Shown in pieces: positions 14,879 to 33,696 of a DNA stretch of 33,986 bases (positions are counted from its first letter, which is position 1; every line of letters starts with the position of its first letter). The DNA is taken from NCBI GenBank assembly GCA_026991135.1, contig JALXCD010000156.1, positions 1 through 33,986 of the forward strand, read 5' to 3'. The DNA comes from Deltaproteobacteria bacterium (GTDB taxonomy: Bacteria > Desulfobacterota > Dissulfuribacteria > Dissulfuribacterales > QOAL01). The notes under the pieces are model-generated. The model saw nothing but the letters and a program-made list of their open reading frames with translations. It did no database searches and had not been told where the DNA came from. A program made the position numbers and the translations under genes.

Positions 14879-14918
14879 GATTTCAGTCTTTTACTGGAAA
14901 AATTTTCCTGGCTAGTTT

Positions 14919-17900: not shown

Positions 17901-18686
17901 TATTTCATTTATAGGCTCAAGGAAGGTATCTATTGCTTCCTGATAAAAGGTTTCAAGTGTCTTTAACGATTTTGCGGAATGTGTTTTTAAAACTTTCCCC
18001 AATTCCTTAATTTCCCTTTCAAAGGTAAAGAATTCTTCTATCACCTCTTGAAGGGATATTTCTGGAAGTATCTTTGGCCTTGGAAGGGAAAGATAGGGGT
18101 ATGCCCTTTGGAAAAGGCCTTGGGGAAGGGCCTCTCCAAAGAGATTGATGGCCTTTTTAATAAGCCACTCTTCTTCTTTGTAGAACCTTTTTCGAACATA
18201 TTCAAAAAAATTTAATCTGTAGAGTTCTTCCTGAGACTTAATAACCTTTTTTTCAAAAAGGGTGCCGGATTCAAAGGAAAACTCGCTAAGCATTCGTTGA
18301 CAAAAGCCATGAATGGTAAAAATAGCAGCTTCATCCAGCCTTAAAAGGGCCTCTTCCACCCGTTGAATAAGTATATCCTCGGTAAGCCCCTTCCTCTTTA
18401 ATGCCTTAAAAAGGTGTAAGATAAAATCGTCTTCAATATCAGATATTTTGCCTTGCAGAAATAAAAGGGCTTCTTTCAGCCTTACACCTATCTTAAATCT
18501 CAATTCCTCAGTTGCTGCCTTGGTAAAGGTGACAACCAGAATCTTTCCTGGCAAAAGTCCCCTTTCCATAACAAGCCTTAAGTAAAGGCTTGTGATACCA
18601 TGTGTCTTACCGGTTCCTGCACTTGCTTCAATAAGGGCATGGCCCTTTAACGACATCTTTACAGGGTCAAACGTTTGCATTTGCAA
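14919..18686 (-). CDS. recB: Exodeoxyribonuclease V beta subunit RecB
   Basis: This 1255-aa protein is the 3'-5' helicase and nuclease of RecBCD. The UvrD-type helicase shows ASAGTGKT (21-28), VTFTKAATEEL, LIDEFQDTD, GDPKQAIYGFRGAD, YHKSKGLEFPVVFLP and YVALTRAKAK. The C-terminal nuclease domain has GFIDL with Asp1146 and LDYKSNWLG with Asp1159 and Lys1161. This is the same spacing as the E. coli catalytic residues D1067, D1080 and K1082, so the nuclease should be active. The ATG lies 5 bp after the recC stop, and an AGGAAA ribosome site overlaps that stop codon. The intact nuclease and the recC neighbour exclude an AddA assignment. Confidence 0.97.
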   Translation of the reverse strand: MQMQTFDPVKMSLKGHALIEASAGTGKTHGITSLYLRLVMERGLLPGKILVVTFTKAATEELRFKIGVRLKEALLFLQGKISDIEDDFILHLFKALKRKGLTEDILIQRVEEALLRLDEAAIFTIHGFCQRMLSEFSFESGTLFEKKVIKSQEELYRLNFFEYVRKRFYKEEEWLIKKAINLFGEALPQGLFQRAYPYLSLPRPKILPEISLQEVIEEFFTFEREIKELGKVLKTHSAKSLKTLETFYQEAIDTFLEPINEIIGNFISRDAIKKMMVRRLKTGLKKAFSELDSFSPRHDSKIPGLPLLDLSNVASGENLDFLFDAFVSSKSKDLKKIDISTRKKLKESLLLKWKESGRSFLKKHHDLILKDSLISGIQRLYFFYEGIEKRLFSALLRDSIAFTLDYVSKEKQKEMLFSYDDMLLNLKDAIYHKRFGKILSHKIRDKFPVALIDEFQDTDSIQWKIFKRIYDDYNKSTLILIGDPKQAIYGFRGADIFTYIRAKKKIPETRIFSLSRNWRSNPELVEIINEIFLNQDENPFVFDGIRYQRVTAQRGEWLFIDGYREEGFEFLIDDVSGNVSANNINEIPTERLFCLEIKRLIYLGQQKRAWIYQGDVKKRPLTAGDITVLVRSHYEATIVARELTRLGIPFAYSGKNSVFSSFEARELLYVLNGIFNPLDSKAVSAALCTRLLGVSAKELLELKNDLEGWDGICDKFHELKLIWQQSGVFPMLMTLFKRFNVPERLLSSRDGERALTNLRHLSELLSKAELEKEGGERLIAWLKENIENPRELEEEHELRLETDENIVNIMTYHKSKGLEFPVVFLPFLDEMNPKPNDYYFCHRCSSYVVETAPKRPEDRDFKRWLTGIFEGMEGKGSHNEHREEQEKEAFSETQRLIYVALTRAKAKCYLALKGGFFNGLLNEHAAFLEGEVKDNEEKLKRYLGKLYGKKGLEAFFKDEKFLDVKSFKEKEITERYSDYLFDVPKIRRLPLAPWSWRRLSYSSIANEALVEDLDSSFLKLDMAKDPHDLRKTHSILAFPKGTHAGDLIHKLLETIDFDAERDEIFERAKDLINEYGFDQEWTCVLSEHIYNIFGTEILPGLRLKDIEKGNMVKEMDFHMSFNRAEIGIYSRLFDDLEGGVIKGFIDLTFKFGDSYYCLDYKSNWLGPAIEDYSRKNMEMAMDAHDYWLQAAIYIKAFETYLKRIYSKNDKRPLVKGAIYLFLRGAGHKKNGSRYGVLFISRHELKERLKEKLPIL

Positions 18687-18691
18687 ATTTC

Positions 18692-21600
18692 CTATGATTT
18701 TGCATGCAAAAGAGGAAGAAAAAACTTTAGAGAAAGCTCAATAAATTCTATTTCTTTTAGAAATGCCATAAGGCCATCATATTTATGCAGACCTTTAAAG
18801 GCATATTCCAGCCACCTGTCTGTTGCCCAATATTTTCCATTTCTTTTCCTGAACTCTTCATTTTTCAATATTGCATTAATGGCCTCATTACACTTCTCAT
18901 CTTCATACAAAAGGGGCATTATCTCTTCTATGTCTGAAAGGGAAACAGGAGAATCATCCCTGTTGTGAAGTTTTTCTGCTATCTTTTTTGAAAAGCGAGG
19001 CAGAAAATAAAGTGGACGCCTTAAGCCCTCAAGGTAGGTAATAAAAAATTCTTTAAAAATCTTATTGGAAATATCATCCTCAAGGATTCTCAATCTCACT
19101 TCCTTGGATTTTGGACTGACTATTATACTAATTTTTCCGTCGCTATCTTCGTTAAATATTCTTGAGATTATAATATGCTTTATCCAGAAAACAGAAAGAT
19201 AAGAATCAGTTAGCTTTCTATGGGAAAACTCCAACAGTCCCCCATCATTCTTAAGATTCCTTAATGCCCCTTCAAGATCTATAAAAAGTTCCCCTTCTCC
19301 GTCCTTAACCTTGATCATTTCTTTAATATCAAGGACATCTTTTGAAAGACCATATTTTTTTAGGGCCTTTATTAGTTTTGGCAGATTGACCCCATTTAGA
19401 AGGTGATATTCCCAGTGAATCTTTGCCTGATTTCCAGGGGGAAGAAGCCCCATTGCCCTTGACCTTCTAAAGGCATACTCCCAAAAAAGCAGGATCTCTT
19501 TTGTAGAGACCTTTTGGGGAAAATCATTAATTTTTTCAGACAAAGGCTCTTTAAAACCTTCCATTATAATCTCATTGACTTTTGGGTCGGGCCTTTGGGG
19601 TTCTGTTATCTCAAGAAGGGTCTTACCAATATCAAGATCAATTCCCAGTCTTTTTCTCAAAAAGTGTCTTACAGGATGTGAAAAAAACCAGGCAAAGTCA
19701 TCCACCGATACCTTTGAATAAAGCTTCATTTCTTCATCAGTCAGAGGAAGTGGACCATGGCAGAGCTTTAAAAGGTGAGCATCTTTATCCTTAAAAATTT
19801 TTTGTGCGTGCCATTCCTTTGCGTAGGTGGGTGGAAGCCATTTTTCATCAGTATCTCGATACCTACTGCTAAAGGGCTGAAGAGGGTGTTCCACAAATAT
19901 AAGGGGTCTTATGGAATCTCCATCTGTTCTTTTGAAGGAATCTTCAAGATAATCTAAAAGCTCTTGAACCACAGAGGAAGGATTCTTTTCAGTGTTATCC
20001 CGTTCATTTTTGCCAGTAAAACTAATCCAAAGCATCTTTCTGGCAGCACAAATGGTCTCAAGGAAAAGGTATCTATCTTCATCCCTTGGATTTCGATCCC
20101 CAGGCCTAAGGTCCCTGGCAATAAGATCAAAGGAGGGGAATCTTACCTTCCTTGGAAAATCTTCATCATTCATTCCAAGAAGGCAGATTACCTTGTAAGG
20201 AATAGTCCTCATGGGAATAAAGTTTGAAAAAAGGACCTTCCCAGTGATCTGGGAGCCATGAGGGAAAGCCCTGCAAAGACTCCTTTTAACAACAGAAAAC
20301 ATCTCATTAAACCCAAGTGCTTCTATGCCTTCGTCTTTCATTTTTTTAACAATATCCAAAAGGGTGGCGTAAAGGTCCTTGACCTTTTCATCTTGAGCTG
20401 GCTCCTTTGATAAAAAGGTCTTCATGACCAAAAGGAACCATTCCCTCCATTGTTCTGGGCTAAGCCCTATCTTAAGCTCTTTGGGGCTACAAACTATCTC
20501 CTGAAGGCCATGAACAAAGGACGAAAGGATTGCCAAGGACCGGACTTCCGAACCCTCTATTGGACATTCAAGGGGATATATACCTGTTTCTTTAAGTATC
20601 TCATCTCCTTTTCCTTCCATACACCAAGAGGCAAACATTCTATCAATGCCAAAAAGCCAGGTATTTTCCCTTATGTCTAGACCCCTTGAAATGGTATTAA
20701 AACCAGTCCGGATATTGCTATCAGCTATCCATTCCCTAATATTTGAAATATCCCCCTCATCAATTTCCAGATGTTCCATAACTGGCTTTAAGGATAAAAG
20801 GTCATATACCTCCTGGGAATTAAAATGCTTAAAGGGAAAAGAAATAATCCTTAAATAGGCCCTTGCAACTGGATCGTCTTCCTCAAAGGACCTATCACCA
20901 ATGCTAAAGGGTATGAAACGTTCCTTTGGAGTTGAACCAAAAACTGCCTCTATGTAAGGTCTATATTTTTTTAAGTCAGGACATAAGACAAGACAATCCC
21001 TTGGATTTAATGACAAATCGCTATTGAAGATATGGACAAAAAAATCATGAAGTGCCTCCACCTCCCTTAAAGGGCTGTAACAGCTATTTATCAAAATGGA
21101 TCTATCTTTATCCTCTATTACACCCTTATCGCCATCTCTCAGCCTATTCAGCAAGATATCTTCTTGGAGCATCTCAAGAAGGCTTGTTGCCTTTTGAGAA
21201 GGCATTTCTTTTGGCGAGATAAAAATCTCCTTGCTTTTAAAGGAATCAATCTCAAATCCTTTGGACAAAAGCCTTTCCCAAAAGGCCTTCCCTGACTGAC
21301 CTAGTGAAGAAAGAAGCTTATGCCCCCTTAGATAAAGGTGACTTATTCCCTTCCAGTCTTTTATTCTTTTAAAGAAGGCTCTTTCCTTTTCTGGGGCTAA
21401 ATCAAGCCAGTATTCTTTGCATGGATTAAAGACAAATAATTGCACCTTTGTAAATCGTGAAAGCCCTCCCAAAATATCTAGATGTAGCGGTGAAAGATAT
21501 GAGATGCCAAATACGAAAAGATCCCTTGGAAGTGTTAGGTTTAAATTCGTCTCATTATAAAGGGCAGTTAATAACCTTCTTAGATAATCGGTTCTGAATC

Positions 21601-22144
21601 TTGCCCCCTTTTTCGTAGAAATCCTTTTCCAAATATAAGCCTGCCAACCGTATTTATCTAAATCTTTTCCCTTTTCCCATTTAGCCAGAATATCAAAGCG
21701 ATAATTTAAGTAGCCATCAAAAACCCTTGCTATTTCTGATGCCAAGGGGAAAAAATCCCTTTTATCTCTATCTCCTAAAAGCTCTTTAAGTCCTATAAGC
21801 CCTTCTTCTGGCTCTGATCTGTTGGTTAAATCCAGCAGTTCTTTAAAAACAGACCACTCAAGTTCTTCCTGGGTAATAACTTCTCTTGATATATTCTCAC
21901 CCAAGAATCTTTTAGAGATTTCCCAAAAAAAAGAGCCTACCAGTCGAAAATCAATATTTGCACAGATGCCGTGCCGCTCTGAAAATCTTATTGAAAACCA
22001 CTGGGCCATTTCAAAGTTATTTATGAGAACCGTAGTGGATTCAAAAGGAGAACCCTCGTTTTTGGAGTCCATGATAAGATCAGAGGCCAGGTCTGCCAGG
22101 GCTTCAAGCCTGTTTGATTGATGAAGAATTAGGGCCTTATTCAT
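18692..22144 (-). CDS. recC: Exodeoxyribonuclease V gamma subunit RecC
   Basis: This 1150-aa protein is the scaffold and Chi-recognition subunit of RecBCD. It resembles E. coli RecC (1122 aa) throughout. Examples are the N-terminal HQSNRLEALADLA, IRFSERHGICANIDF, VLCPDLKKYRPYIEAVFG, and the segment PMRTIPYKVICLLGMNDEDF followed by GDRNPRDEDRYLFLE. The helicase-like fold has no working Walker A, as expected. It is the first gene of recC-recB-recD. The 82 bp upstream contain no clear promoter hexamers, and the gene lies just downstream of napH on the same strand, so read-through from the nap cluster is possible. The Chi sequence read by this complex is unknown. Confidence 0.95.
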   Translation of the reverse strand: MNKALILHQSNRLEALADLASDLIMDSKNEGSPFESTTVLINNFEMAQWFSIRFSERHGICANIDFRLVGSFFWEISKRFLGENISREVITQEELEWSVFKELLDLTNRSEPEEGLIGLKELLGDRDKRDFFPLASEIARVFDGYLNYRFDILAKWEKGKDLDKYGWQAYIWKRISTKKGARFRTDYLRRLLTALYNETNLNLTLPRDLFVFGISYLSPLHLDILGGLSRFTKVQLFVFNPCKEYWLDLAPEKERAFFKRIKDWKGISHLYLRGHKLLSSLGQSGKAFWERLLSKGFEIDSFKSKEIFISPKEMPSQKATSLLEMLQEDILLNRLRDGDKGVIEDKDRSILINSCYSPLREVEALHDFFVHIFNSDLSLNPRDCLVLCPDLKKYRPYIEAVFGSTPKERFIPFSIGDRSFEEDDPVARAYLRIISFPFKHFNSQEVYDLLSLKPVMEHLEIDEGDISNIREWIADSNIRTGFNTISRGLDIRENTWLFGIDRMFASWCMEGKGDEILKETGIYPLECPIEGSEVRSLAILSSFVHGLQEIVCSPKELKIGLSPEQWREWFLLVMKTFLSKEPAQDEKVKDLYATLLDIVKKMKDEGIEALGFNEMFSVVKRSLCRAFPHGSQITGKVLFSNFIPMRTIPYKVICLLGMNDEDFPRKVRFPSFDLIARDLRPGDRNPRDEDRYLFLETICAARKMLWISFTGKNERDNTEKNPSSVVQELLDYLEDSFKRTDGDSIRPLIFVEHPLQPFSSRYRDTDEKWLPPTYAKEWHAQKIFKDKDAHLLKLCHGPLPLTDEEMKLYSKVSVDDFAWFFSHPVRHFLRKRLGIDLDIGKTLLEITEPQRPDPKVNEIIMEGFKEPLSEKINDFPQKVSTKEILLFWEYAFRRSRAMGLLPPGNQAKIHWEYHLLNGVNLPKLIKALKKYGLSKDVLDIKEMIKVKDGEGELFIDLEGALRNLKNDGGLLEFSHRKLTDSYLSVFWIKHIIISRIFNEDSDGKISIIVSPKSKEVRLRILEDDISNKIFKEFFITYLEGLRRPLYFLPRFSKKIAEKLHNRDDSPVSLSDIEEIMPLLYEDEKCNEAINAILKNEEFRKRNGKYWATDRWLEYAFKGLHKYDGLMAFLKEIEFIELSLKFFLPLLHAKS

Positions 22145-22226: not shown

Positions 22227-23054
22227 TTAGAGTGATTTCCACTTAAAATTAAGTGCACCTGTTTTACAACTGTCAATACACTCCCCACAGTTCCAGCAAT
22301 AGGGAGAAAGGGCCTGTCCCTTTTCAGGATCAAGGGTAAATGGACACGCCCTTTTGCAAGTACCACAACTTACGCAGAGTTCTTCTTCTTTTTGAATGAC
22401 AAGTCTTCTCTTTATACCTAAAAGGGCTAGAAGACCGCCTAAGGGGCAAAGATATTTACAAAAAAAACGCTTTTGGAAAAGGTGCATTAAAAGGACCATG
22501 ATAACGACTACCCCTTCAATGGCCAGGGTATGAAATATAGTCGCAACCATTATCTCTCTTCCAACAAGACCGGGAGGGGATAAAAAAACAAAGATTGGAG
22601 CACCAATAACCAGGGCCAATAATATCTCGCCAATAAGAGCATACCATATTAAAGACCTTGGAAGGGGATTTGCATCCTTTCGATAGCGCTTCCCCTTTAT
22701 CTTTAGAATGATTCTGTCAATTAGCTCTGATAAGAAGCTTATTGGGCATATCCAGCTACAAAAGACCCTTCCAAGAAAAAGGGCGATGATTACTGGGATG
22801 GCCATTCCAACCAGAAGAGGGCCATACAAAAGACGCGATGTAAGAATACTTTCAAGGCCCTCAAGGGGAGAGACAAACCAGAGTTTTCCAATGCTAAGGC
22901 TTTGAAACCAACCCTGCACAAAATTAAAGTGGAGTTTTGAATTCAAATAGGGTGTAATGGCAATAAGTAAAAAGGCCCCCAAAAGCATTAAGAATCTTAT
23001 CGGCCTGTATCTAAAATGCCTCTTTTTCTTTAAAGATATCTTTTTTTCTACCAC
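22227..23054 (-). CDS. napH: NapH, membrane ferredoxin-type quinol dehydrogenase component
   Basis: This 275-aa membrane protein works with NapG to take electrons from menaquinol to periplasmic nitrate reductase. About four or five transmembrane helices are interspersed with the cytoplasmic cysteine motifs CSWICP and CKYLCPLG that define NapH. Two 4Fe-4S motifs follow at the C-terminus (CVSCGTCKRACP and CWNCGECIDSC). The start is GTG within GTGGTAG, overlapping the napG stop by 7 nt, so translation is coupled. It is the last gene of the cluster, with 82 bp before recC and no terminator that I can see. Confidence 0.93.
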   Translation of the reverse strand: MVEKKISLKKKRHFRYRPIRFLMLLGAFLLIAITPYLNSKLHFNFVQGWFQSLSIGKLWFVSPLEGLESILTSRLLYGPLLVGMAIPVIIALFLGRVFCSWICPISFLSELIDRIILKIKGKRYRKDANPLPRSLIWYALIGEILLALVIGAPIFVFLSPPGLVGREIMVATIFHTLAIEGVVVIMVLLMHLFQKRFFCKYLCPLGGLLALLGIKRRLVIQKEEELCVSCGTCKRACPFTLDPEKGQALSPYCWNCGECIDSCKTGALNFKWKSL

Positions 23055-23665
23055 TTAACAGGCCCCTGGGAATAAATTGGTTCAATATTTATGGCCTTTT
23101 TGCCATCTTTGGTCACAACTGGGCAGCCATGGGTACATAACCCGCAACCGGTGCAATATTCTTCAATAACCACCGGACGTAATTGGTCCAATTTTATTGC
23201 GGTTTCTTTAAATGGACAGACGTTGTAACAGGTCCTACAAAGGGCAAGTTCCTCATTCCAGGTTTTGCATGCGTGCTTATCTATAACTGCAAGCCCCATC
23301 CTGGTTTCATTCTGTTTTATTGGCTGCAAGGTTCCAGTAGGACAAACTTCCACACATTTCATACAAAGATAGCAGGGAATATCCTCTACATAGATAAGGG
23401 GAGTGCCTGCATAAATACCCTCTTTTATATCAAGGGGCACAATGCAATTATATGGGCAGACTTCAACACAACGCCCACACCTTATACACTTTGATGGGAA
23501 TATCCTTTCTGAAACAGCCCCTGGCGGCCTAAGTCTATTAGTAGTGACAGGGCTTGTAATGGCACTTGCCTTTTTGTACCTAAATGACAAAAGGCCAACG
23601 CTGCCTGCCAATATCTCTTTAATGAATTGTCTTCTTCCCTTGTTCTTCCTGGATTTCGATTTCAT
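23048..23665 (-). CDS. napG: NapG, periplasmic ferredoxin with four 4Fe-4S clusters
   Basis: This 205-aa exported ferredoxin is the partner of NapH. The N-terminus carries a twin-arginine signal (GRRQFIKE, 10-17) and a hydrophobic stretch. LRPPGAVSERIF (46-57) is a NapG hallmark. Four clusters follow, with the motifs CIRCGRCVEVCP, CYLCMKCVEVCP, CRTCYNVCP and CTGCGLCTHGCP. It probably takes electrons from NapH and gives them to NapM or NapA. The gene overlaps napD by 47 bp. The overlap seems real, since no later start would keep the twin-arginine signal. Confidence 0.94.
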   Translation of the reverse strand: MKSKSRKNKGRRQFIKEILAGSVGLLSFRYKKASAITSPVTTNRLRPPGAVSERIFPSKCIRCGRCVEVCPYNCIVPLDIKEGIYAGTPLIYVEDIPCYLCMKCVEVCPTGTLQPIKQNETRMGLAVIDKHACKTWNEELALCRTCYNVCPFKETAIKLDQLRPVVIEEYCTGCGLCTHGCPVVTKDGKKAINIEPIYSQGPVKW

Positions 23666-23902: not shown

Positions 23903-24562
23903 TTATTTGTATTTTTTGGGCGTTAACGCCTTCATTGATTCAACTCTTCTTTTTAAAATGGTAGCCCCTGTTGCAGTATGAGAAGGAGAAAACACATGTG
24001 ATACGGTATCTTCTCCCAAAAGTCCGTCCAAGGTCTCCACATCATTAAAGCAAGCCAATGTCCCTATGGCATCTTTTGACAAGGTCTTTTTAGCAGAGGC
24101 CTTTACTCTTTCCATATAATCATGGTTTAATTTTTCGTCACCCATAAGTATTGCAGAACATCTTGCAATATAGGCCCTTATCCTACCCCAAAAACAATCA
24201 ATTCGCGCCTCATTACAAAACCTTTCTCTTGCCTCATTACTTAAGGCATCAACTTCAATATACCTTGCCTGAAGATCTGCACGCCTTAATAGCTCTAGCC
24301 ACTCATGTTGTGAATATTTTGTTGAAATCTTTTTGGATAGTTCCAAAAGGGTCTTAGGCCCCCTTAAATATGGAAAACCCTCCAGGGAGAGCAAGCCCTT
24401 ACACCTTACTTTTTCATTTTGAATCAATCTCTCCATCAATAGCCAGCTCTCTCCGCAAGACTTTCCCTTTGTATGATTATAAAAAAAGGAACTTGTTTCA
24501 CCTGAAAAGGCTACCGTACATAGAAAGAAAAAAATAACAATATTTAAAATTAACTGTCTCAT
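23903..24562 (-). CDS. Uncharacterised exported 219-aa protein inside the nap cluster
   Basis: I do not recognise this protein. Residues 1-20 form a Sec signal peptide (MRQLILNIVIFFFLCTVAFS). The mature part is mainly helical and polar and has six cysteines (36, 54, 116, 123, 135, 171), none in a CXXCH haem motif. An even number suits disulfides or a metal site. HTATGATILKRRVESMKAL closes the protein, and no lipobox is evident. It is placed after the hairpin that follows napA, with GAAGGAG 6 nt before the ATG, and ends 11 bp before napD. None of the named Nap subunits (B, C, E, F, K, L, M) fits. A periplasmic assembly or electron-transfer helper of NapA is a guess from position only. Confidence 0.8.
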   Translation of the reverse strand: MRQLILNIVIFFFLCTVAFSGETSSFFYNHTKGKSCGESWLLMERLIQNEKVRCKGLLSLEGFPYLRGPKTLLELSKKISTKYSQHEWLELLRRADLQARYIEVDALSNEARERFCNEARIDCFWGRIRAYIARCSAILMGDEKLNHDYMERVKASAKKTLSKDAIGTLACFNDVETLDGLLGEDTVSHVFSPSHTATGATILKRRVESMKALTPKKYK

Positions 24563-24612: not shown

Positions 24613-27018
24613 CTATGTTTTCATTTCAACAAGGAATGGTTTCAATGGCTTTGGCCCTGACACCTTCCTTATTTTACAGGCACAGATCTTAAACTCAGGT
24701 TCCTTTGATCCTGGATCAAAGGCGTCTTTGGTTACCCTATTTATCATCCTGGACTCTTTCTGATCATGCCAATAAACAAAAACCATTCCCTCACAAGGCC
24801 CAACATATACCTTCGCTGGTAAAATATTTTTTCCACGCCTTGATGCTACTTCAACCATATCCCCAGGTTTTATGCCAAGTTTTTTGGCATCCTTAGGATT
24901 AATTTCCACATAGGCATAGGGATTGGCCCTCATAAGTTCGGGAATTCGACCGGTCATACTGCTTGTGTGCCAGTGGTCAATGACCCTTCCTGTTGATAGA
25001 TAAAAGGGATAGTCAGAATCTGGCATCTCTTCTGGACCGCGTTGCGGCCGTAACCAAATCCACAATTTTTTATCGGGATGGGCAGGTCCATAAAACTGAT
25101 AAGGCTTTTGATCCTTGGCATGTTTATCGGCAAGTGGATCAAGACCCCGAACAAACTTGATATCAGTTCCCCCTTTAAGTGCCCATTCCTTGGTTGGAGC
25201 TGGCCACTGAACACCATCTGGCAATTTTTTAAGGACTTCATAGGTGGCACCCCTTAGGTCGTTATCACGACCCTTTGTTAACTTCTGGGTATATTCGTCC
25301 CAAATGGCTTTTGGAAGCTCATAATCAGGCTCTTTCCCAAGAAACGGTTCAACACATTTTTTGATTACAGGATCATTTAGCTCCTTAGATAACTTAAGGG
25401 CCCATTCTCTTACAATCCAAACATCAGGCTTTGCCTCTCCTGGAGCATCCACTGCCTTTACAGTTAACTGTGAACGTCTTTCAGTACAGCCGTAGACACC
25501 AGTCTTTTCAAAATGAAAGGCAGTTGGTAACACGAGATTTGCAAGCTCTGTGGTCTTTGTTGGGAAAATATCAGTAACCACCATAAAGACATCTTCCCTG
25601 GACATGCCTTTTCTATACTTATCACAATTTGGTAAGCTCTGGGCAGGACTTGTACAGTTAATCCAGATTGCCTTTATCTTTCCCAGGTTCACAGCCTCAA
25701 ACATGGCAATGGTGTGGTAGCCAGGCTTTGGAGGAATACGACCCTGTGGAATTCCCCAAAGCTTCTCCACCTGGTGACGAAGCTTATCCTTTTTAACAAG
25801 TCTGTGGCCTGGAAGAATGTGGCAAAGTCCACCGCCTTCGCGAACACCCCCGCAGGCATTTGGTTGACCTGTAAGTGAAAAGCTGTCCGCCCCTGGTCGA
25901 CAAAGTTGCCCTGTTAGGATGTGCAGATTGTGAATAAGATTGTTGGCCCAGACACCGCGTTTTCTCTGGTTAATGCCCATGGTCCAAATGCTCACTGTGC
26001 CTTCTGATTTTGCAAACCACAACGCTGCAGTCCTGATTTTTTCAGGAGTGATATTTCCACCACAGATGTCAGCAGCCTTTTCAGGTGTATAATCCTTTAA
26101 AAATTCCTTATACTTTTCAAAGGAAACCTCTTTTTTCTTGCCCATACGGAAAGTCGCATAGTTTTTGAGAAATGTTTCATCGTAAAGCTTTTCCTTAACA
26201 ATCACATGGGCCATGGCATTTAAAAGGGCAAGGTCTGTTCCTGGCTTAAACTGTAAGTGTAAATCGGCAATTCTGGATGTGGGAGAAACCCTTGGATCTG
26301 CATTTATAACCTTGACTGTTTCACGATTATCCAACTTCCTACGCATCACACGTCTAAAAAGAACAGGATGTGCCTCGGCCATGTTACTGCCAATGATGAA
26401 AAAACAACTGGCCCTTTCAAAATTCGTATAGCTTCCAATGGGTTCATCGGCACCAAAGGATGTCAGATAACCCCCAACTGCACTTGCCATGCAAAGGCGC
26501 GGATTTCCTTCAACATTATTGGTTCTAAGCCCGCCCCTAAAAATCTTTTGAAAGAGATAGGTCTCTTCTGTAAGGGCCTGGCCTGATCCATAATAGGCAA
26601 CAGAATTATTGCCATGATTTTTGACGGCCTTTGCAAACTCCTTTGCTGCAATATTTAGTGCCTCATCCCATGAAATCTCTTTAAAGGGTTCTTTTTTGCT
26701 CTTTCTGTAAAGAGGCTTTTTTAGCCTGTCTGGGTTATTGTAACCCATTAGCTTGTAGAATAGCATGCCCTTCATGCAGAGATAGCCATAATTTGTTCTA
26801 GAATCTGAAATACCCCTAAGGGCTACTGCCTTTCCATTCTTCACACCCAGTTCTAGCCGACAGCCTGCCCCACATAATCTACAGGTCCCTTTATGCCAAC
26901 TGTCGGCATCTGAGGCTTGGGATGTATTCTCGTTTTTAAAAGGAAGATTTATACCCACATAAGATGCAGCTGTTAGTGCTGCAGTCCTTTTTAAAAATTC
27001 TCTTCTTGAAAGACCCAT
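24613..27018 (-). CDS. napA: Periplasmic nitrate reductase catalytic subunit NapA
   Basis: This 801-aa Mo-bisMGD enzyme reduces nitrate to nitrite in the periplasm. The twin-arginine signal is SRREFLKR (4-11). The 4Fe-4S cluster is held by Cys46, Cys49, Cys53 and Cys81. Cys176 in NPRLCMAS is the expected molybdenum ligand, found in nitrate reductases, whereas formate dehydrogenases have selenocysteine or cysteine in another context. HTSSMTGR and the C-terminal cofactor-binding half are complete. The length lies between the Desulfovibrio desulfuricans and E. coli enzymes. A TAGGAGG site precedes the ATG, and napM ends 13 bp before. No napB is present, so NapM is the likely haem partner. Confidence 0.95.
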   Translation of the reverse strand: MGLSRREFLKRTAALTAASYVGINLPFKNENTSQASDADSWHKGTCRLCGAGCRLELGVKNGKAVALRGISDSRTNYGYLCMKGMLFYKLMGYNNPDRLKKPLYRKSKKEPFKEISWDEALNIAAKEFAKAVKNHGNNSVAYYGSGQALTEETYLFQKIFRGGLRTNNVEGNPRLCMASAVGGYLTSFGADEPIGSYTNFERASCFFIIGSNMAEAHPVLFRRVMRRKLDNRETVKVINADPRVSPTSRIADLHLQFKPGTDLALLNAMAHVIVKEKLYDETFLKNYATFRMGKKKEVSFEKYKEFLKDYTPEKAADICGGNITPEKIRTAALWFAKSEGTVSIWTMGINQRKRGVWANNLIHNLHILTGQLCRPGADSFSLTGQPNACGGVREGGGLCHILPGHRLVKKDKLRHQVEKLWGIPQGRIPPKPGYHTIAMFEAVNLGKIKAIWINCTSPAQSLPNCDKYRKGMSREDVFMVVTDIFPTKTTELANLVLPTAFHFEKTGVYGCTERRSQLTVKAVDAPGEAKPDVWIVREWALKLSKELNDPVIKKCVEPFLGKEPDYELPKAIWDEYTQKLTKGRDNDLRGATYEVLKKLPDGVQWPAPTKEWALKGGTDIKFVRGLDPLADKHAKDQKPYQFYGPAHPDKKLWIWLRPQRGPEEMPDSDYPFYLSTGRVIDHWHTSSMTGRIPELMRANPYAYVEINPKDAKKLGIKPGDMVEVASRRGKNILPAKVYVGPCEGMVFVYWHDQKESRMINRVTKDAFDPGSKEPEFKICACKIRKVSGPKPLKPFLVEMKT

Positions 27019-27031
27019 AGTTGCCTCCTAA

Positions 27032-27385
27032 TTACTTATGAATAAAGAAATGATGGGCTGGATGGCAATCCCAGCAGGTCTTGCCTTTTGGCTTTTTACC
27101 GAATTGGCCACTATGACATGGTGCACAATTTGTTTCCCTTGGAGTAACATGAAAATCTTCATAGGTGCCATGACATTGATAACATTTGACATTTGCAATA
27201 CCGTGAACCGAACCAAACCACTCCTTGTAGACATCTGGTGTTGCCTTAATGTGACAAGTTGCACAAGCTGTCAATTTTTCTTGGTCACTCAATTCAGGGT
27301 GCTCGTCTGCCCATACTACTGAGCCCATGGCACAAAAGCATAAAATCAAAATCAACGAAGGTAGAAGGACTTTAAATCTTTTCAC
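27032..27385 (-). CDS. napM: NapM-type tetrahaem cytochrome c
   Basis: This 117-aa periplasmic cytochrome has a signal peptide (1-26) and four haem sites: CATCH (41-45), CYQCH (68-72), CAPCH (87-91) and CWDCH (104-108). In Desulfovibrio nap clusters the tetrahaem NapM takes the place of dihaem NapB, and the size and position just before napA fit that. The start is GTG, preceded by a strong AAAGGAGG site right after the hairpin that follows the porin gene. It probably passes electrons between NapGH or the HaoC quinol dehydrogenase and NapA. An alternative is a general small tetrahaem shuttle that also feeds HaoA. Confidence 0.85.
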   Translation of the reverse strand: MKRFKVLLPSLILILCFCAMGSVVWADEHPELSDQEKLTACATCHIKATPDVYKEWFGSVHGIANVKCYQCHGTYEDFHVTPRETNCAPCHSGQFGKKPKGKTCWDCHPAHHFFIHK

Positions 27386-27440: not shown

Positions 27441-28895
27441 CTAGAAAGTTAGCCTGAACTCTACATAGAAGAAGTCCAGGTCGTCGTCTTTTTGGAAGTT
27501 GTCTTCCACAACATCATCTCCCCAAACATGGCTGTAGTAAAGGTCCATTCCCAGAGCAAGGCCGTTATATTTGTAAATATTTTTGAAAAATAGGGAAATA
27601 TCCCACATGCTACCAAGGGAATCATGGCCTTGTCCAATATGCCCCTTAAGACCTTTGTAACCAAAGATATCAGGCCTTGTCATACCGGAACCCTGGTACC
27701 ACGCATCGTCCTCTTCGGTAAGCCAAAGTTTTGTGAAATCACTTCTTACCACCAGATTACACATTGGCTTGGCGATCACCTGGAAGAACCAGTATTTGGT
27801 ATTCATAAGATTGTACCAAGGGGTCATTGCATAAATACGAAGTGTTGGCGTCATCATGAAAAAGGTATTACGATCATTGTCAGTGGGGTCGTCATCACCT
27901 GAGCTTCTGAAAAATCCTGTACGAAGCCAGGGTTGCCATGCAACATCTTCAAACTTGTAACCACCTTCAACTGCAATGGCAAATGCACTTTGATCAGCAC
28001 TTCCCCAACTTCCTGTCTGGGCGTCACCCCACAAGAGAAAATCAAAACTACCAAGCCATACCTTAGGTGTCACATAGAGGATGTGGCCTCCGAAATTGCT
28101 GATTTCTGGATTCTGAACAATCCCACCTACGCTCACATCCCTTTCATCATTGTAGTAGTAATAAAAAAATTGGGCATCTAGTCCCTTTATTACAGTATCC
28201 TTTAAGGTCGCAACCACTGTGAGAAGATCAATATCATGGCTTTTATACCCGTTATAGGTATCATCCATAATATCAAGATAGAATCCACCTGGGGTTGGCT
28301 GCATTCCTGCCACAGTTATATTGAATGCCTTGTCATCATAGGCAACCTGAAAACCGTCATAGGAACGGCCAACACGTGACCATTCAAAGCCACCGATGAG
28401 GCGCTGGGAAATACGAAGCTTTCTAAGCCAGGCAAGCCTCTTGTTCTTTGGCAATGTCTTATATTCTAGAGCACTATTGTATTTAAACCGTCCAATTGTT
28501 GCACTCAGACTTTCAAAACCAGGAAAACGGGCACGAATCCATGCCTGGGTGATACCCACCTGGCCCACGTTTCCAGAACCATTGTTTTGGCCAAAATAAA
28601 GGGCTCCTGTACCATAACTGGCAGTCCTTGGAAGACCGAAGAACTGGGTCCAGTTAAAAGATCCATAAGCATCAATAAGCTTTGATGTAAAACCAAAGCC
28701 CAACCTCATCTTGCTAGAAGCAAAGGTGTATGAATCCTTCTTTGTAGTAGGTTTTTCAAAGGTGGACCAAGTTTCAATCCTGAATTCCTCTTTCCACTTT
28801 AAGTAGGCGTTATCATTTATTTTATACGCAAGAAGTGGTGATACCAAAAATGTGCTTAAGGCTAATAACACAGCAAAAAAGATAAATCGTTTCAT
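27441..28895 (-). CDS. Outer-membrane beta-barrel (porin-like) protein
   Basis: This 484-aa exported protein has a signal peptide (about 1-23, ending in PLLA). The rest is built of alternating aromatic and polar stretches typical of beta-strands, with Tyr/Trp-rich girdles. The last residues, DFFYVEFRLTF, end in phenylalanine, the usual signal for the BAM assembly machinery. I cannot name the substrate family. There is no plug domain and there are no haem motifs, so it is neither a TonB receptor nor a decahaem conduit. Set between haoA and napM, it may admit nitrate or nitrite, which is an inference from position. A strong AAGGAGG site lies before the ATG. Confidence 0.8.
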   Translation of the reverse strand: MKRFIFFAVLLALSTFLVSPLLAYKINDNAYLKWKEEFRIETWSTFEKPTTKKDSYTFASSKMRLGFGFTSKLIDAYGSFNWTQFFGLPRTASYGTGALYFGQNNGSGNVGQVGITQAWIRARFPGFESLSATIGRFKYNSALEYKTLPKNKRLAWLRKLRISQRLIGGFEWSRVGRSYDGFQVAYDDKAFNITVAGMQPTPGGFYLDIMDDTYNGYKSHDIDLLTVVATLKDTVIKGLDAQFFYYYYNDERDVSVGGIVQNPEISNFGGHILYVTPKVWLGSFDFLLWGDAQTGSWGSADQSAFAIAVEGGYKFEDVAWQPWLRTGFFRSSGDDDPTDNDRNTFFMMTPTLRIYAMTPWYNLMNTKYWFFQVIAKPMCNLVVRSDFTKLWLTEEDDAWYQGSGMTRPDIFGYKGLKGHIGQGHDSLGSMWDISLFFKNIYKYNGLALGMDLYYSHVWGDDVVEDNFQKDDDLDFFYVEFRLTF

Positions 28896-29005: not shown

Positions 29006-30385
29006 TTAAAGAGGACCAGTGCTCATTACTGTGCTGAGCTCTTCAATCTTATTGTTCTTTATACGATAGTTGTAAATTGCCTGAAGGTCCTTATACATCT
29101 GGAATAACTGAAAGAAGCCATGCCAATGGGCATAATCGGGACCATTCATGGCCGCACCCTGGCGAGCACGCCTTCCTGCATGATGCCAGAAATAGTATGC
29201 AATTTCTTGGAATCCGTCTGACCATGGATCCTTTCCTAAAAGCCCCTTAGCTGCAAGATCCTTTTTCATCTTTAGCACACCATCCCAGTAAAAATTATAA
29301 AGAGCCACTGCATCATCCAGGGTATTCTTTTCCTTGGCTATCTGGGTGGGGCCGTGACAGTTAGCACATACCTTTCTCATAAGAACAGCACCTTTTTCTC
29401 CATTACCCCTTTCTCCTGAGCGAATTACACTCTTTGGATGAACAAGATCCCATTTAAGCCTTTCATTGATATTATGAGTGGTTGTTAGCTCCCCAATTCC
29501 GCTCATATGACATGTGGCACAAGTTGGAGCGGTGTAATCTCCCGGCTGCCATGCATCTGGGGCGCTATCCCACTCCCAGCTCTCACCATGGGTTGCAAAT
29601 ATCTGTCCGTGTTTGCTTTCCATATAGATTTCAATATCAGGATGGTCTGGTCCAAGGTGACAACTTGCACATGCCTCAGGCTTTCTTGCCTCTTCTATGG
29701 AAAACTGGTGCCTTGTATGGCAAACCGTACAGGTTCCAATGCTTCCGTCAGGATATCTAGTACCTACACCGCCCGGCCAAGTATTCTTGATTGGCTTATG
29801 ATCTGGGCCAAGTTCTACCTTCCCACCATGGCACATCTGGCATCCAGCCGCACGAGATGCCATATTACTTGAGTTGGCCCTTGAATTTCCTGCGAATTCA
29901 CCACCTTCAAGATGGTACATGAGATTCAAGGTCTTCTTTTTTTCAACTACAGGTGCCGAAGCCAATTTCGCATGACCGCTTTTCAGGAACTGCTCAACTT
30001 CTTGTGGATGGCAACGTGAACAGGTCTTTGATGATACCATTGGAGAAATGTAAATGTTCGAGCCCTTGATCCCTGAACACTGACTCGCCATGGGCGAACT
30101 TTTTTCAACCACATGACAGTCAAAGCATGTTACAGAAGCATGGGCCATTTTGCCCTTCTTCCATGACTCTATTATTCCTGGAGTCTTTTTGGAGTGACAC
30201 TCAATACACTTGGCCGCCTCAGGAGAAAGCCCCCTCTTGATCACTAGCTTCTTATGAAGCGTCGGGGTAGTGTTACCTGTAGCTTGGTCAACACCATTCT
30301 CCTGGGCCATTGCAACGCTCATGGTTAGCCCCACAAAAAGTGCGGCTAATAACAGCGTGCCAGCCTTACCAAATAATTCTTTCAT
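29006..30385 (-). CDS. haoA: Octahaem cytochrome of the hydroxylamine oxidoreductase family (HaoA-like)
   Basis: This 459-aa periplasmic protein has a signal peptide (1-27) and exactly eight CXXCH sites starting at residues 60, 87, 122, 182, 219, 239, 289 and 340. Family marks are GPDHPDIE with the Asp247-His248 pair, the SKHG motif, and the haem-free tail [10 protein letters not shown] (415-424). The family includes ammonia-oxidiser HAO, anammox enzymes and the campylobacterotal haoA thought to reduce nitrite. Here haoC lies 42 bp upstream and nap genes downstream, so a reductive role, nitrite to hydroxylamine or ammonium, is most likely. Tyr418 needs alignment to see whether it matches the haem-crosslinking Tyr of oxidising forms. 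AAAGGAGG precedes the ATG. Confidence 0.92.
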
Positions 30386-30427: not shown

Positions 30428-30985
30428 CTATTTGGCGGAAGCCTGTATCTCCCTAAATTTTGCCACCAGATCACCGTGTCCCACTTCATGATGACAATCA
30501 ATACACGTACGCTTTGTTTCACCATTCAAATAGGCCTTGTGGCCAGTTATGGCCTTTAATGGAATGCCAGGGGCTATCAATTCTTTGTGACACTCTTTGC
30601 ATCCAGATTCATAGGCGGCATGAACATAAGGACCCCTATTCTTCCAAATACCAAGCCAATCAGTCTTTTTCCCCATCCAGTGGGCCTTAATGTCATGCAA
30701 CCCAGCCTTTGTCTTTGTGGAAAGATAATTGGCAAGACTGTCATGAGGTAAATGGCAGTCCACACACCTTGCCCTGATGACGCCTTTAGCGTCTGTCCCA
30801 TGCTTTCCTGCTGCCCAAGTTTCATAAAAGGGATTCATTTCATGACATGAATTGCAAAATTCTACAGTACTGGTAGATTGAACTTGTTTAGCAGCAAAAA
30901 AGGCAACCAAAAGGGCAATAAGGAAGGCAATTATACATACAATTACTACTGCCCCCCTGTTATTTTTGATAAATTTCATGGACAC
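30428..30985 (-). CDS. haoC: NapC/NrfH-family tetrahaem quinol dehydrogenase, partner of HaoA
   Basis: This 185-aa membrane-anchored cytochrome has a single N-terminal helix (about 10-32) and four CXXCH sites starting at 44, 74, 129 and 161. The first reads CNSCHEM, the CXXCHxM pattern that supplies the unusual Met-side haem ligand in NrfH. It oxidises menaquinol and feeds periplasmic reductases. The gene pair with haoA copies the haoCA order of nitrite-reducing Campylobacterota. Because the cluster has no napC, it might also serve NapM/NapA. An AGGAGGGTG site precedes the ATG; a second in-frame ATG lies two codons on. It is the first gene of the cluster, next to the proposed operator. Confidence 0.93.
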   Translation of the reverse strand: MSMKFIKNNRGAVVIVCIIAFLIALLVAFFAAKQVQSTSTVEFCNSCHEMNPFYETWAAGKHGTDAKGVIRARCVDCHLPHDSLANYLSTKTKAGLHDIKAHWMGKKTDWLGIWKNRGPYVHAAYESGCKECHKELIAPGIPLKAITGHKAYLNGETKRTCIDCHHEVGHGDLVAKFREIQASAK

Positions 30986-31038
30986 CCTCCTGTCTCAAGA
31001 TATCAGATTAATTTAATTATTTAACTTAACGAATTTTT

Positions 31039-31076
31039 CTGTTACTGTGTTGTTAAATATGTAACTAAATTGTAAC
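31039..31076. promoter_or_regulatory. Candidate OmpR/PhoB-type operator: two 7-N4-7 direct repeats
   Basis: Four related 7-bp elements occur on the plus strand: CTGTTAC (31039-31045), TTGTTAA (31050-31056), ATGTAAC (31059-31065) and TTGTAAC (31070-31076). Starts are 11, 9 and 11 bp apart, so two 7-N4-7 direct repeats lie in tandem. This is the layout of Pho-box-like sites bound by dimers of winged-helix response regulators. The site lies between haoC and the cupin-kinase-regulator genes, and the regulator encoded at 32998 is of that family. Control of both directions is an inference. Confidence 0.55.
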
Positions 31077-31080
31077 AAAA

Positions 31081-31104
31081 TATGATAAATCAAAATATGG
31101 AGGG
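31081..31104 (+). promoter_or_regulatory. -10 box and ribosome site of the cupin-kinase-regulator operon
   Basis: TATGAT (31081-31086) is a 5/6 match to the -10 and follows the last operator element after 4 bp. There is no good -35, as usual for activator-dependent promoters. GGAGGG (31099-31104) is the ribosome site for the ATG at 31109. An ATG at 31082 lies inside the -10 box and so cannot be the start if this promoter is used. Confidence 0.6.
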
Positions 31105-31108
31105 TGGT

Positions 31109-31450
31109 ATGATTATTTCTTATAAGGCCGATGATATTGATTTTCAAGATCATCCTACTTTTGAAGGGGTAAAAATTGCAAAATTAGTAGGCGAAAATGA
31201 TAGCTCACCAGTAGGTATCTCTATATTAAAAATAGAAAGCGGAGTAGAGATACCAATTCATACCCATGAGGAAAGCATAGATTCCATCTATTGTCTCTAT
31301 GGAGATGGTGAGATTTTTGACGGATCAACCTGGAAGCCACTCCAGGAGGGGGATTACTATTTTGTCCCAAAGGGTGAAAGGCATGGCGTAAAAAATACAG
31401 GGAGTGACATCTTAAAGCTTTTTATTTGTCACAGCCCTCCTCTTTTTTGA
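31109..31450 (+). CDS. Small single-domain cupin
   Basis: This 113-aa cytoplasmic beta-barrel protein has cupin motif 1, HTHEESIDSIYCLYGDG (from His51/His53, with Asp58 in the place of the usual Glu). Motif 2 is GDYYFVPKGERHGVKN (81-96, with His92), a perfect match. His51, His53 and His92 should hold a metal ion. The start is set by GGAGGG at 31099; a longer form from 31082 would begin inside the -10 box. It is the first gene of a three-gene unit and ends 3 bp before the kinase start. Possible roles are sensing or an effector in nitrogen-oxide stress, but nothing in the sequence proves either. Confidence 0.85.
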   Translation: MIISYKADDIDFQDHPTFEGVKIAKLVGENDSSPVGISILKIESGVEIPIHTHEESIDSIYCLYGDGEIFDGSTWKPLQEGDYYFVPKGERHGVKNTGSDILKLFICHSPPLF

Positions 31451-31453
31451 TTT

Positions 31454-32980
31454 ATGCGTTTTAGTCTCGGTCAAAAGATACTTCTTTGGATAGTTTTAAT
31501 TATAGGAGCTTTTGGTCTTATTCTTCTAACCTGGGAAAATAGACAGTACAGAAGCTCTGGAGTTCATCAGCTTTTGCAACAAGCAAGGGGCATCTATCAT
31601 TATGTGGTCCTAACAAGGCAACTTATTTCAGAACTTAAGGGTGTGTATATTAAAAAAGGAGCCACCTATAAAAGGATGACTCCTTCTGCATTTACAGCAA
31701 AACTAACTTCTTACGCCGGCCAAAAGGCGCCCTTTTATTTAAAAATTGCAGTTGCTGAAAGCAGTGATCCTAATCATATCCCAGATGAATTTGAAAAAAG
31801 GGCCATTGATATATTAACTAAAGAAGGGAAAAAGGAATTTTGGGAAATCCAGCACCATCAAAGGAATTACAGATTTAGATATGCTGGCCCTCTTATTTTT
31901 GAAAATCAATGCCAAAGTTGCCATAGTCGAATTCCTACAAAAAGAATATTGGGTTGTATCTCTATTGGGCTGGACGCTAATAAATTTTTTCACAATCTCA
32001 ACAGGGACGTACTTCATTATACAATATACATGGCCCTCAGCCTGATTGTCATCCTGGTACTGTTATGGTTTATGTTGAGATCATATGTCCTAAAACCTTT
32101 ATCTTTGTTAAATAAGGCAGCAGAGCGAGTGAAAAATGAAGATTTTTCTGTGAGGGTGAATCTTAATGCCAGCAAGGAATGGGAAAATGTAGGCGAAAAT
32201 TTCAACAATATGGTCTCTGCCCTTGCAAAACGACATTCTGCCCTACAAGAAGAGGCAGAAACTGCTGTTAAAAAGCTTAGGAAGGCCTATGAAGAACTGA
32301 AAAGAACCGAAAAATATAAGTCTGACTTTTTTACCAATATCACCCATGACTTAAAAACACCAATTACTGCAATGAAAGGGGCCATAAATCTTCTTGATAG
32401 AAAATGCAGTGCCAAAGAGGCCACATATGTGGAAATTCTTCACAGAAACATAGAAAAACTATCGTCTATGGTTCAGGATCTCCTTGATTGTTCCAGGCTT
32501 GAAAGTGGAGAGCTTGAACTTCAACTCGAAAGTGCCGATCTTGCCGAAGTTTTGGAAGACGCCATTTTGATAGCTATGCCCCTTGCCTGGAAAAAGAAGA
32601 TAAAACTTGATTATCAAGTCCCTGACGAACCGAGCATTGCAAAGATCGACAAAAAAAGGATCGAACAAGTTATAATAAATCTCCTTTCAAATGCCATAAA
32701 GTTTTCTCCTAAAGGCCAGAAGATTGAAATAAGTCTGTCAAAGGAAAACTCTTTTTGGAAAATTCAGATCCAAGACCATGGCCCTGGAATACCTAAGGAC
32801 GAACAGAAACGTGTCTTTGACAAATTTTTCCATAGAACAGAATCTAAATATGATAGTGGTATGGGCCTTGGCCTTGCCATTGCCAAGGGGATTGTCGAGG
32901 CCCATGGTGGCAAAATAGGACTTTTTTCAGAGGAGGGAAAGGGAAGTAAATTTTATTTCCTTATCCCGCAGGCAAATTAG
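31454..32980 (+). CDS. Membrane sensor histidine kinase with periplasmic c-haem site (DUF3365-like)
   Basis: This 508-aa kinase has TM1 at about 9-26 and a periplasmic sensor region to about 188. That region carries a CXXCH haem site, NQCQSCHSRIPTKR (Cys153, Cys156, His157), of the DUF3365/Tll0287-like type. TM2 follows at about 189-208, HAMP at 210-262 and a short coiled coil. The kinase core has His298 in HDLKTP, Asn413 in NLLSNAIKF, DHGPGIP (441-447) and GMGLGLAI (469-476). The haem may sense redox state, NO or oxygen. The start has no clear ribosome site but is coupled to the cupin stop 3 bp away. The response regulator follows 17 bp later. Confidence 0.9.
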   Translation: MRFSLGQKILLWIVLIIGAFGLILLTWENRQYRSSGVHQLLQQARGIYHYVVLTRQLISELKGVYIKKGATYKRMTPSAFTAKLTSYAGQKAPFYLKIAVAESSDPNHIPDEFEKRAIDILTKEGKKEFWEIQHHQRNYRFRYAGPLIFENQCQSCHSRIPTKRILGCISIGLDANKFFHNLNRDVLHYTIYMALSLIVILVLLWFMLRSYVLKPLSLLNKAAERVKNEDFSVRVNLNASKEWENVGENFNNMVSALAKRHSALQEEAETAVKKLRKAYEELKRTEKYKSDFFTNITHDLKTPITAMKGAINLLDRKCSAKEATYVEILHRNIEKLSSMVQDLLDCSRLESGELELQLESADLAEVLEDAILIAMPLAWKKKIKLDYQVPDEPSIAKIDKKRIEQVIINLLSNAIKFSPKGQKIEISLSKENSFWKIQIQDHGPGIPKDEQKRVFDKFFHRTESKYDSGMGLGLAIAKGIVEAHGGKIGLFSEEGKGSKFYFLIPQAN

Positions 32981-32997: not shown

Positions 32998-33696
32998 ATG
33001 CCATCTGCCAAAATATTAGTAGTTGAAGACGACCCTGACATCCGCACGGTTTTGATGGATCAATTAAGCCTTGATGGCTATGATGCTATTGGAGCATCCA
33101 CTGGGAGAGAGGCCCTTGACCTTTTGGATGCCCATACCCCAGACCTTATAATACTCGATTTAAAATTGCCTGATATTGACGGCATACTTATATGTCAACA
33201 AATCAGAAAAAAATCAAATGTCCCTATCATCATAGTGAGTGCCAGGGATTCCTTGCCTGACAAAATTAGAGGCCTTGAGGTTGGAGCAGATGATTATGTG
33301 ACCAAACCATTTGAATATCTTGAGCTTGAAGCTCGTATCCGTGCTTGCCTTAGAAGAAGGATGACTGAACTTAGTGAGAAAGAACCCTTGGACTTTGGAG
33401 ATCTAAAGGTCTATAGGCAAAAAAGGTCCATAGAGGTTAATGGCAAAGAGGTAAAACTGACAAAAAAGGAATATGAATTGCTTACGCTTTTTATAGAAAA
33501 CCCAGGAAAGGTCCTTTCGCGGCAGTTCTTAAGTTCTCGGCTCTGGAATCAAAAAGAAGTATATCCATGGAGCCGTGCCCTGGATGTTCACATAAGAAGG
33601 CTTAGAAAAAAGATAGAGCCAGATCCAGCAAATCCCAAATATATATTGACACATGCGGGAGTTGGTTACCGATTCACCCAGGGTGACGAGAAATAG
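32998..33696 (+). CDS. OmpR/PhoB-family response regulator
   Basis: This 232-aa protein has a receiver domain with the acidic pair Asp11/Asp12, phospho-acceptor Asp54, Ser81 and Lys103. A winged-helix DNA-binding domain follows (about 132-228) with the family ending VDVH-like ALDVHIRRLRKKIEPDP and GVGYRF. A GGGGGAG site precedes the ATG. It is the cognate partner of the kinase just upstream. Its fold binds tandem direct repeats of about 11-bp period, the pattern found at 31039-31076, so it may regulate haoC and its own operon. Confidence 0.94.
   Translation: MPSAKILVVEDDPDIRTVLMDQLSLDGYDAIGASTGREALDLLDAHTPDLIILDLKLPDIDGILICQQIRKKSNVPIIIVSARDSLPDKIRGLEVGADDYVTKPFEYLELEARIRACLRRRMTELSEKEPLDFGDLKVYRQKRSIEVNGKEVKLTKKEYELLTLFIENPGKVLSRQFLSSRLWNQKEVYPWSRALDVHIRRLRKKIEPDPANPKYILTHAGVGYRFTQGDEK

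Follow-up and report, generated by a model that had tools for sequence, protein, structure and literature searches.

Two-component control of nitrate and nitrite ammonification is known from the NarX/NarQ-NarL/NarP systems, which act on nap and nrf and in which NarL is a LuxR-type regulator, and in PhoB-controlled promoters the pho box lies about 10 nt from the -10 element. OmpR/PhoB-type tandem operators are themselves a known kind of site, represented by the pho and ArcA boxes (PMC4415409, PMC3798270): the former consists of 7-N4-7 direct repeats of 11-bp period standing in place of the -35 element (PMC4415409), and the latter of TGTTAA-like repeats whose centres are 11 bp apart, a site often having three to five of them, and serves respiration control (PMC3798270). 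Among sensors, the signalling Tll0287-type (DUF3365) domains are described in a 2026 preprint as heme-c Cache domains (sCache_heme) with NO-sensor properties in vitro and tight NO binding, the NO-sensing data stemming from Pseudomonas proteins (PMC12889525). Ammonification by Nap and an HAO-type octaheme cytochrome without NrfA ('reverse HURM') was reported for Nautilia and Thermosulfurimonas, in a text with no discussion of its regulation (PMC5276818).

We analysed a stretch of 33,986 nucleotides from a Deltaproteobacteria bacterium (hereafter the window), in which haoC (minus strand, with its ATG at 30979) and a cupin gene (ATG at 31109) diverge from a 129-bp gap with 26% GC. This gap holds four half-sites on the plus strand, H1 CTGTTAC (31039–31045), H2 TTGTTAA (31050–31056), H3 ATGTAAC (31059–31065) and H4 TTGTAAC (31070–31076), with start-to-start steps of 11, 9 and 11, which delimit a putative 37-bp 11-9-11 operator (31040–31076, plus strand) directed away from the respiratory operon. 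The repeats and their spacing, already claimed by the initial annotation, were borne out far beyond chance: when the gap (taken as 123 bp) was dinucleotide-shuffled 20,000 times, the four-element 11-9-11 array never appeared, two 11-bp pairs on one strand appeared once, and at least four half-sites on one strand appeared 23 times. The 7-N4-7 pair occurs at only two places in the 34-kb window, both within the array, and the degenerate 37-bp array pattern has one match in this genome. A second site on the opposite strand (31041–31077) was rejected, being the same array read backwards, as the half-sites are nearly palindromic; TGTWACA is approximately its own complement, so that the facing direction of the monomers is not given by the sequence alone.

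Relatives were gathered with the kinase and with the HAO protein as queries. The initial annotation had staked its reading on conservation in relatives keeping both operons, and the array is in fact in register in 12/12 divergent gaps of the window's family, where the flanking sequence drifts. Alignment of haoC upstream regions and pattern scans showed it recurring both within the family and in distant families, more than ten families in all carrying it in the 11-9-11 and 11-10-11 scans. H1 is present in all 12 family-level gaps and reads TGTWAC in family f1 and YGTAAA or AGTAAA in distant families, H2 reads DGTTAA in nearly all arrays, and H3 and H4 read TGTWAM across arrays. In Thermodesulfobacteriales (L041, L042, L043 and L045) the half-sites diverged to CGTAAA, RGTTAA, TGTAAC and TGTTAM, the 11-9-11 spacing being unchanged. 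Direct repeats of 10–11 bp period near the -35 position are what characterizes an OmpR/PhoB-type tandem operator, and the array's proposed membership of this class appears sound.

On the respiratory side, the minus strand encodes, in this order, HaoC, a NapC/NrfH-type four-heme quinol dehydrogenase (30428–30979, by profile match), an HAO-family octaheme cytochrome with eight CxxCH motifs and a Multi-haem_cyto profile match (29006–30385; PDB relatives 4qo5 and 1fgj), which is the candidate nitrite reductase, an alginate-export-type outer-membrane porin (27441–28895, by profile match), a small multiheme cytochrome c (27032–27385, from its sequence), a NapA-like periplasmic nitrate reductase (24613–27018; NapA is its best-scoring family, at a score under the NCBIfam cut-off), a 219-aa protein without Pfam match inside the nap operon (23903–24562), and, at the operon end, NapG- and NapH-like ferredoxins (22227–23665, by sequence inspection). 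The operon is predicted to encode a complete nitrate-to-ammonium route, and no NrfA (PF02335) was found in this genome, which is 97% complete (the E. coli control was positive); Nap together with an HAO-type octaheme and no NrfA is also the combination described in Nautilia and Thermosulfurimonas. A 210-aa protein in the related operon of genome G022 (L195:8443-9075) may be compared with the 219-aa protein. Further along the minus strand (12974–22144), three large genes resemble, by sequence inspection, RecD, RecB and RecC (exonuclease V).

On the other side of the gap, the plus strand encodes a cupin-domain protein (Cupin_2/ChrR-like, 31109–31450), a histidine kinase with a periplasmic Tll0287/DUF3365 c-heme sensor (31454–32980) and an OmpR/PhoB-family response regulator (32998–33696), the proposed operator-binding protein, recognized by profile matches and its recognition helix. 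The cupin, located between operator and kinase and found beside the kinase in family f1 only, might assist the sensor by binding a ligand or metal. The kinase sensor matches PF11845 with 40 bits (cut-off 24.1), is fused to HAMP and HisKA, and carries its CxxCH at residues 153-157, a motif present in every aligned kinase. It shares PF11845 and CxxCH with the sCache_heme proteins for which NO binding is reported; however, the accessible part of the preprint names no operator or target genes (PMC12889525), whereas the present analysis connects a subfamily with its regulator, DNA site and target operons. The kinase probably responds to NO or to a heme state linked to nitrite. Unlike the NarX/NarQ-NarL/NarP systems, the pair described here combines an OmpR-type regulator (Trans_reg_C) with a covalent-heme Cache sensor.

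A putative conserved promoter flanks the array towards haoC. In 23/25 arrays a TA starts 11 nt past the outermost half-site on the respiratory side (10 nt in 2/25), an offset equalled in 0/2000 permutations; the -10 offset is 11 in 8/8 of the 11-10-11 arrays and is kept within one base in most degenerate ones. In the window, the predicted -10 of the haoC operon is TAAGTT (31023–31028, minus strand), 11 nt from H1 and with no -35; most congeners have TAAAAT there, the window's own version being weak. When a -35 was sought under the arrays, the mean best match was 2.72/6 versus 2.62/6 in random sequence. The phylum does use -35 elements, as seen in the rplU-side promoter of L050 (TTGACA-17-TATGCT). 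A candidate sigma70 -35/-10 pair at 31045–31016 (minus strand, 9/12) was discarded, being at shuffle level and out of register with the conserved -10. The link between the array and HAO-based nitrite respiration, drawn by the initial annotation, is upheld, with the conserved -10 lying on the haoC side.

Comparative genomics establishes the half-sites, the 11-(9 or 10)-11 spacing, the -10 at approximately 11 nt (rarely 10 or 12) and the linkage to kinase and regulator. We consider it probable that the array is a two-dimer operator of the regulator encoded at 32998, serving a PhoB-like, class-II-type and NO/nitrite-sensing activation of the nap/octaheme-HAO operon, a reading in which we infer the binding, the sign of control and the signal. 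The periplasmic c-heme Cache domain of the kinase would bind NO, or read the heme redox or a nitrite-derived state, and this sensor state would set the phosphorylation of the regulator. Two phosphorylated dimers, placed head-to-tail where the haoC operon would have its -35, would bring RNA polymerase to a weak, -35-less promoter, as PhoB does, and the activated nap/octaheme-HAO operon would convert nitrate to nitrite and nitrite to ammonium.

The main doubt about activation concerns orientation, since the half-sites, read as TGTWAM, face away from the respiratory promoter. For PhoP of Salmonella, only the direct orientation of a box at 12 nt from the -10 is active (PMC3335776), and the orientation seen here, non-activating at such a distance in PhoP, would suit a repressor, as would the fact that the array overlies the -35 region. 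The same site and regulator would then work the opposite way, with phosphorylated dimers blocking RNA polymerase until the signal removes them. Nevertheless, we regard repression as the less likely sign of control, albeit one with a real share of the probability, since with no usable -35 below the array the promoter could be expected to be weak on its own, and the distance from array to -10 equals the class-II distance. For activation by the 32998 regulator, the operator may be an inverted one placed at class-II distance.

The initial annotation had the array control haoC and the regulator itself, and noted a TATGAT element (31081–31086, plus strand) as a -10; in the version built on this, the array would mainly drive the cupin-kinase-regulator promoter through TATGAT, with haoC as second target. 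TATGAT is indeed present 4 nt after H4, the array points its way, and in many genomes the operon diverging from the respiratory one is that of the kinase. As a controlled promoter, however, this element did not hold: the 97%-identical sister species (L003) has TATAAC in its place, there is no consistent counterpart elsewhere, and no -10 position is conserved on the regulator side of the arrays (679/2000 permutations were as good). Moreover, the respiratory -10 persists where array and kinase are apart, as in G022, G030, G305, G012 and G017 and at the nap site of G285. We therefore judge this arrangement to be improbable. As for the regulator's control of its own genes, the array may also affect them in divergent gaps, where its position allows it, but no conserved promoter signature supports this and the array is not always adjacent. 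In G305 (L197), napC-hao is followed by kinase and regulator genes of the same orientation, which the array could control too, as operon members.

The 32998 regulator is likely the protein that binds the array, given the co-occurrence of the array with the kinase, the recognition helix, and PhoB being the sole other OmpR-type regulator; the initial annotation's assignment of the site to this regulator is, on these comparisons, very probably right. The regulator has a receiver domain (PF00072, 106 bits) and a Trans_reg_C winged helix (PF00486, 95 bits). Its recognition helix, WSRALDVHI.RLR, recurs in the orthologs of families that carry the array (slightly altered in f52 and f19); the genome's PhoB has a different one. 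Among HAO genomes with a kinase ortholog and an assessable upstream region, the array precedes napC-hao in 20/20 (G000-G008, G011, G012, G014, G016, G017, G196, G243, G285, G305, G395 and G149), and among HAO genomes without the kinase (G010, G013, G021 and G045) in 0/4, with a best score below 1 versus 35 for the window; because the genomes compared are related, neither the 20 nor the 4 can be taken as independent. G012 and G017, whose kinase sits on a different contig, still have the array, degenerate but clear, and G033, whose HAO is more distant, carries a degenerate array too; the count leaves out G018, G025 and others in which contig ends cut the region. Genomes G013 (L038/L138) and G010 (L137) belong to the same family and keep napC-hao, kinase and array having both been lost or never present; their hao promoter must have other control.

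Could the site belong to another regulator, such as PhoB or an ArcA-like protein? TGTTAA at an 11-bp period does resemble the ArcA and PhoB boxes (PMC3798270). The genome, however, has only two full-length OmpR-type regulators, the 32998 protein and a PhoB-like protein that adjoins a phoU-like gene and a PhoR-like kinase (by sequence inspection). The half-site here is TGTWAM instead of the CTGTCAT of the pho box, the dimers are 20–21 bp apart instead of 22, and a c-heme sensor kinase and a nitrite-respiration target take part, PhoB being separate; CTGTCAT half-sites, a pst/pho neighbourhood and a score over the PhoB family cut-off (200.7 bits against 296.2) are all absent from this array and regulator. 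ArcA arrays mainly use 11- or 22-bp steps; the arrays here have 11-bp pairs but a centre step of 9 or 10, and their -10 is fixed. The kinase is not ArcB, and against the ArcA profile the regulator reaches 159 bits (cut-off 334).

Spacing gave a further distinction. We scanned 395 genomes of the phylum with one degenerate pattern at three centre spacings, allowing at most one mismatch. The 11-9-11 form had 18 matches in 17/395 genomes (the reversed control had 0 matches in 395), and in 18/18 a Tll0287 c-heme kinase is on the same contig, at most 13 kb away, counting the G182 kinase, which is truncated by the contig end yet recognisable. All eight matches of the 11-10-11 form, in eight genomes, lie in the gap beside a Tll0287-sensor kinase, whereas 0/8 matches of the 11-11-11 control (in 7 genomes) adjoin such a kinase; by sequence inspection, two of these adjoin pst-like genes and two ammonium-transporter-like genes. 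Linkage to the kinase with a centre of 9 or 10, and none with 11, makes the shortened centre the signature of this regulator. The 11-11-11 arrays at L208, L210, L211 and L212 probably comprise pho boxes and a similar box connected with nitrogen. Since the site tracks the Tll0287 kinase even as the target operon changes, and the classical 11-11-11 arrangement does not, ownership by another regulator has a very small probability. Chance repetition in AT-rich DNA, for which only the base composition of the gap speaks, is negligible in view of the shuffles and is already refuted by the conservation across families.

The array heads not only napC-hao operons but also a separate cytochrome-napA operon in G285 and G015. 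In G022 it heads an NrfC/NrfD-octaheme-porin-Nap operon, whose leading cytochrome/ferredoxin genes are matched in G030, G020, G042 and G034 and whose octaheme cytochrome (L195:9177-10802) is a different member of the HAO superfamily, with 27% identity to the window HAO and 4qo5 as best solved relative. In f52 the array heads a Rieske-cytochrome b-octaheme operon (L198:3764-7087; L200 and L201 are further f52/f19 loci), and in f19 Rieske and cytochrome b also lead the array-headed operon, a possible bc-type complex feeding an octaheme reductase. The element common to the operons read far enough is an HAO-superfamily octaheme cytochrome. In genome G028 (L156), a two-mismatch array lies near an NrfH/NrfA-like operon, on the side opposite to the rule.

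A regulon for HAO-based nitrite respiration had also been proposed; the link to this respiration stood, but the regulon in this genome appears limited to one operon and not spread over many sites. The single-dimer pattern TGTWAMN5TGTWAM gave approximately 6–7 matches per genome in nine congeneric genomes, versus approximately 3–4 in the control; apart from the hao site these matches were mostly noise and gave no wider regulon. The sole extra match at three mismatches in this genome (C86:25046, beside an HDOD-like protein) was judged to be chance.

We lean, with some reserve, towards a phylum-wide module in which a covalent-heme NO-sensor kinase and an OmpR-type regulator, acting through the 11-(9/10)-11 operator, would form a dedicated switch of NrfA-independent nitrite ammonification, reused before differing octaheme operons (NapC-HAO, NrfCD-octaheme-Nap and Rieske-cytochrome b-octaheme). 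In the literature searched, with most subscription journals outside, we found neither the 11-(9/10)-11 architecture, its exclusive pairing with a heme-Cache kinase and its link to octaheme operons, nor a regulator of the HAO ammonification route.

In many Desulfobacterota-type bacteria of vents and the subsurface, ammonium seems to be formed from nitrate without NrfA, and the array recurs before similar clusters in a phylum of mostly uncultured bacteria. It offers a first candidate for how HAO-type ammonia-forming respiration is switched on, and makes this question testable by defining sensor, regulator, operator and promoter, with conservation and a specific spacing. One branch of the heme-Cache NO sensors, a group described only recently, is also given target genes. 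The 11-9/10-11 array with a -10 at 11 nt provides a genome-scan signature, marking HAO-superfamily octaheme operons likely involved in nitrite or NO reduction, including, as candidates, those of the Rieske-cytochrome b-octaheme type.
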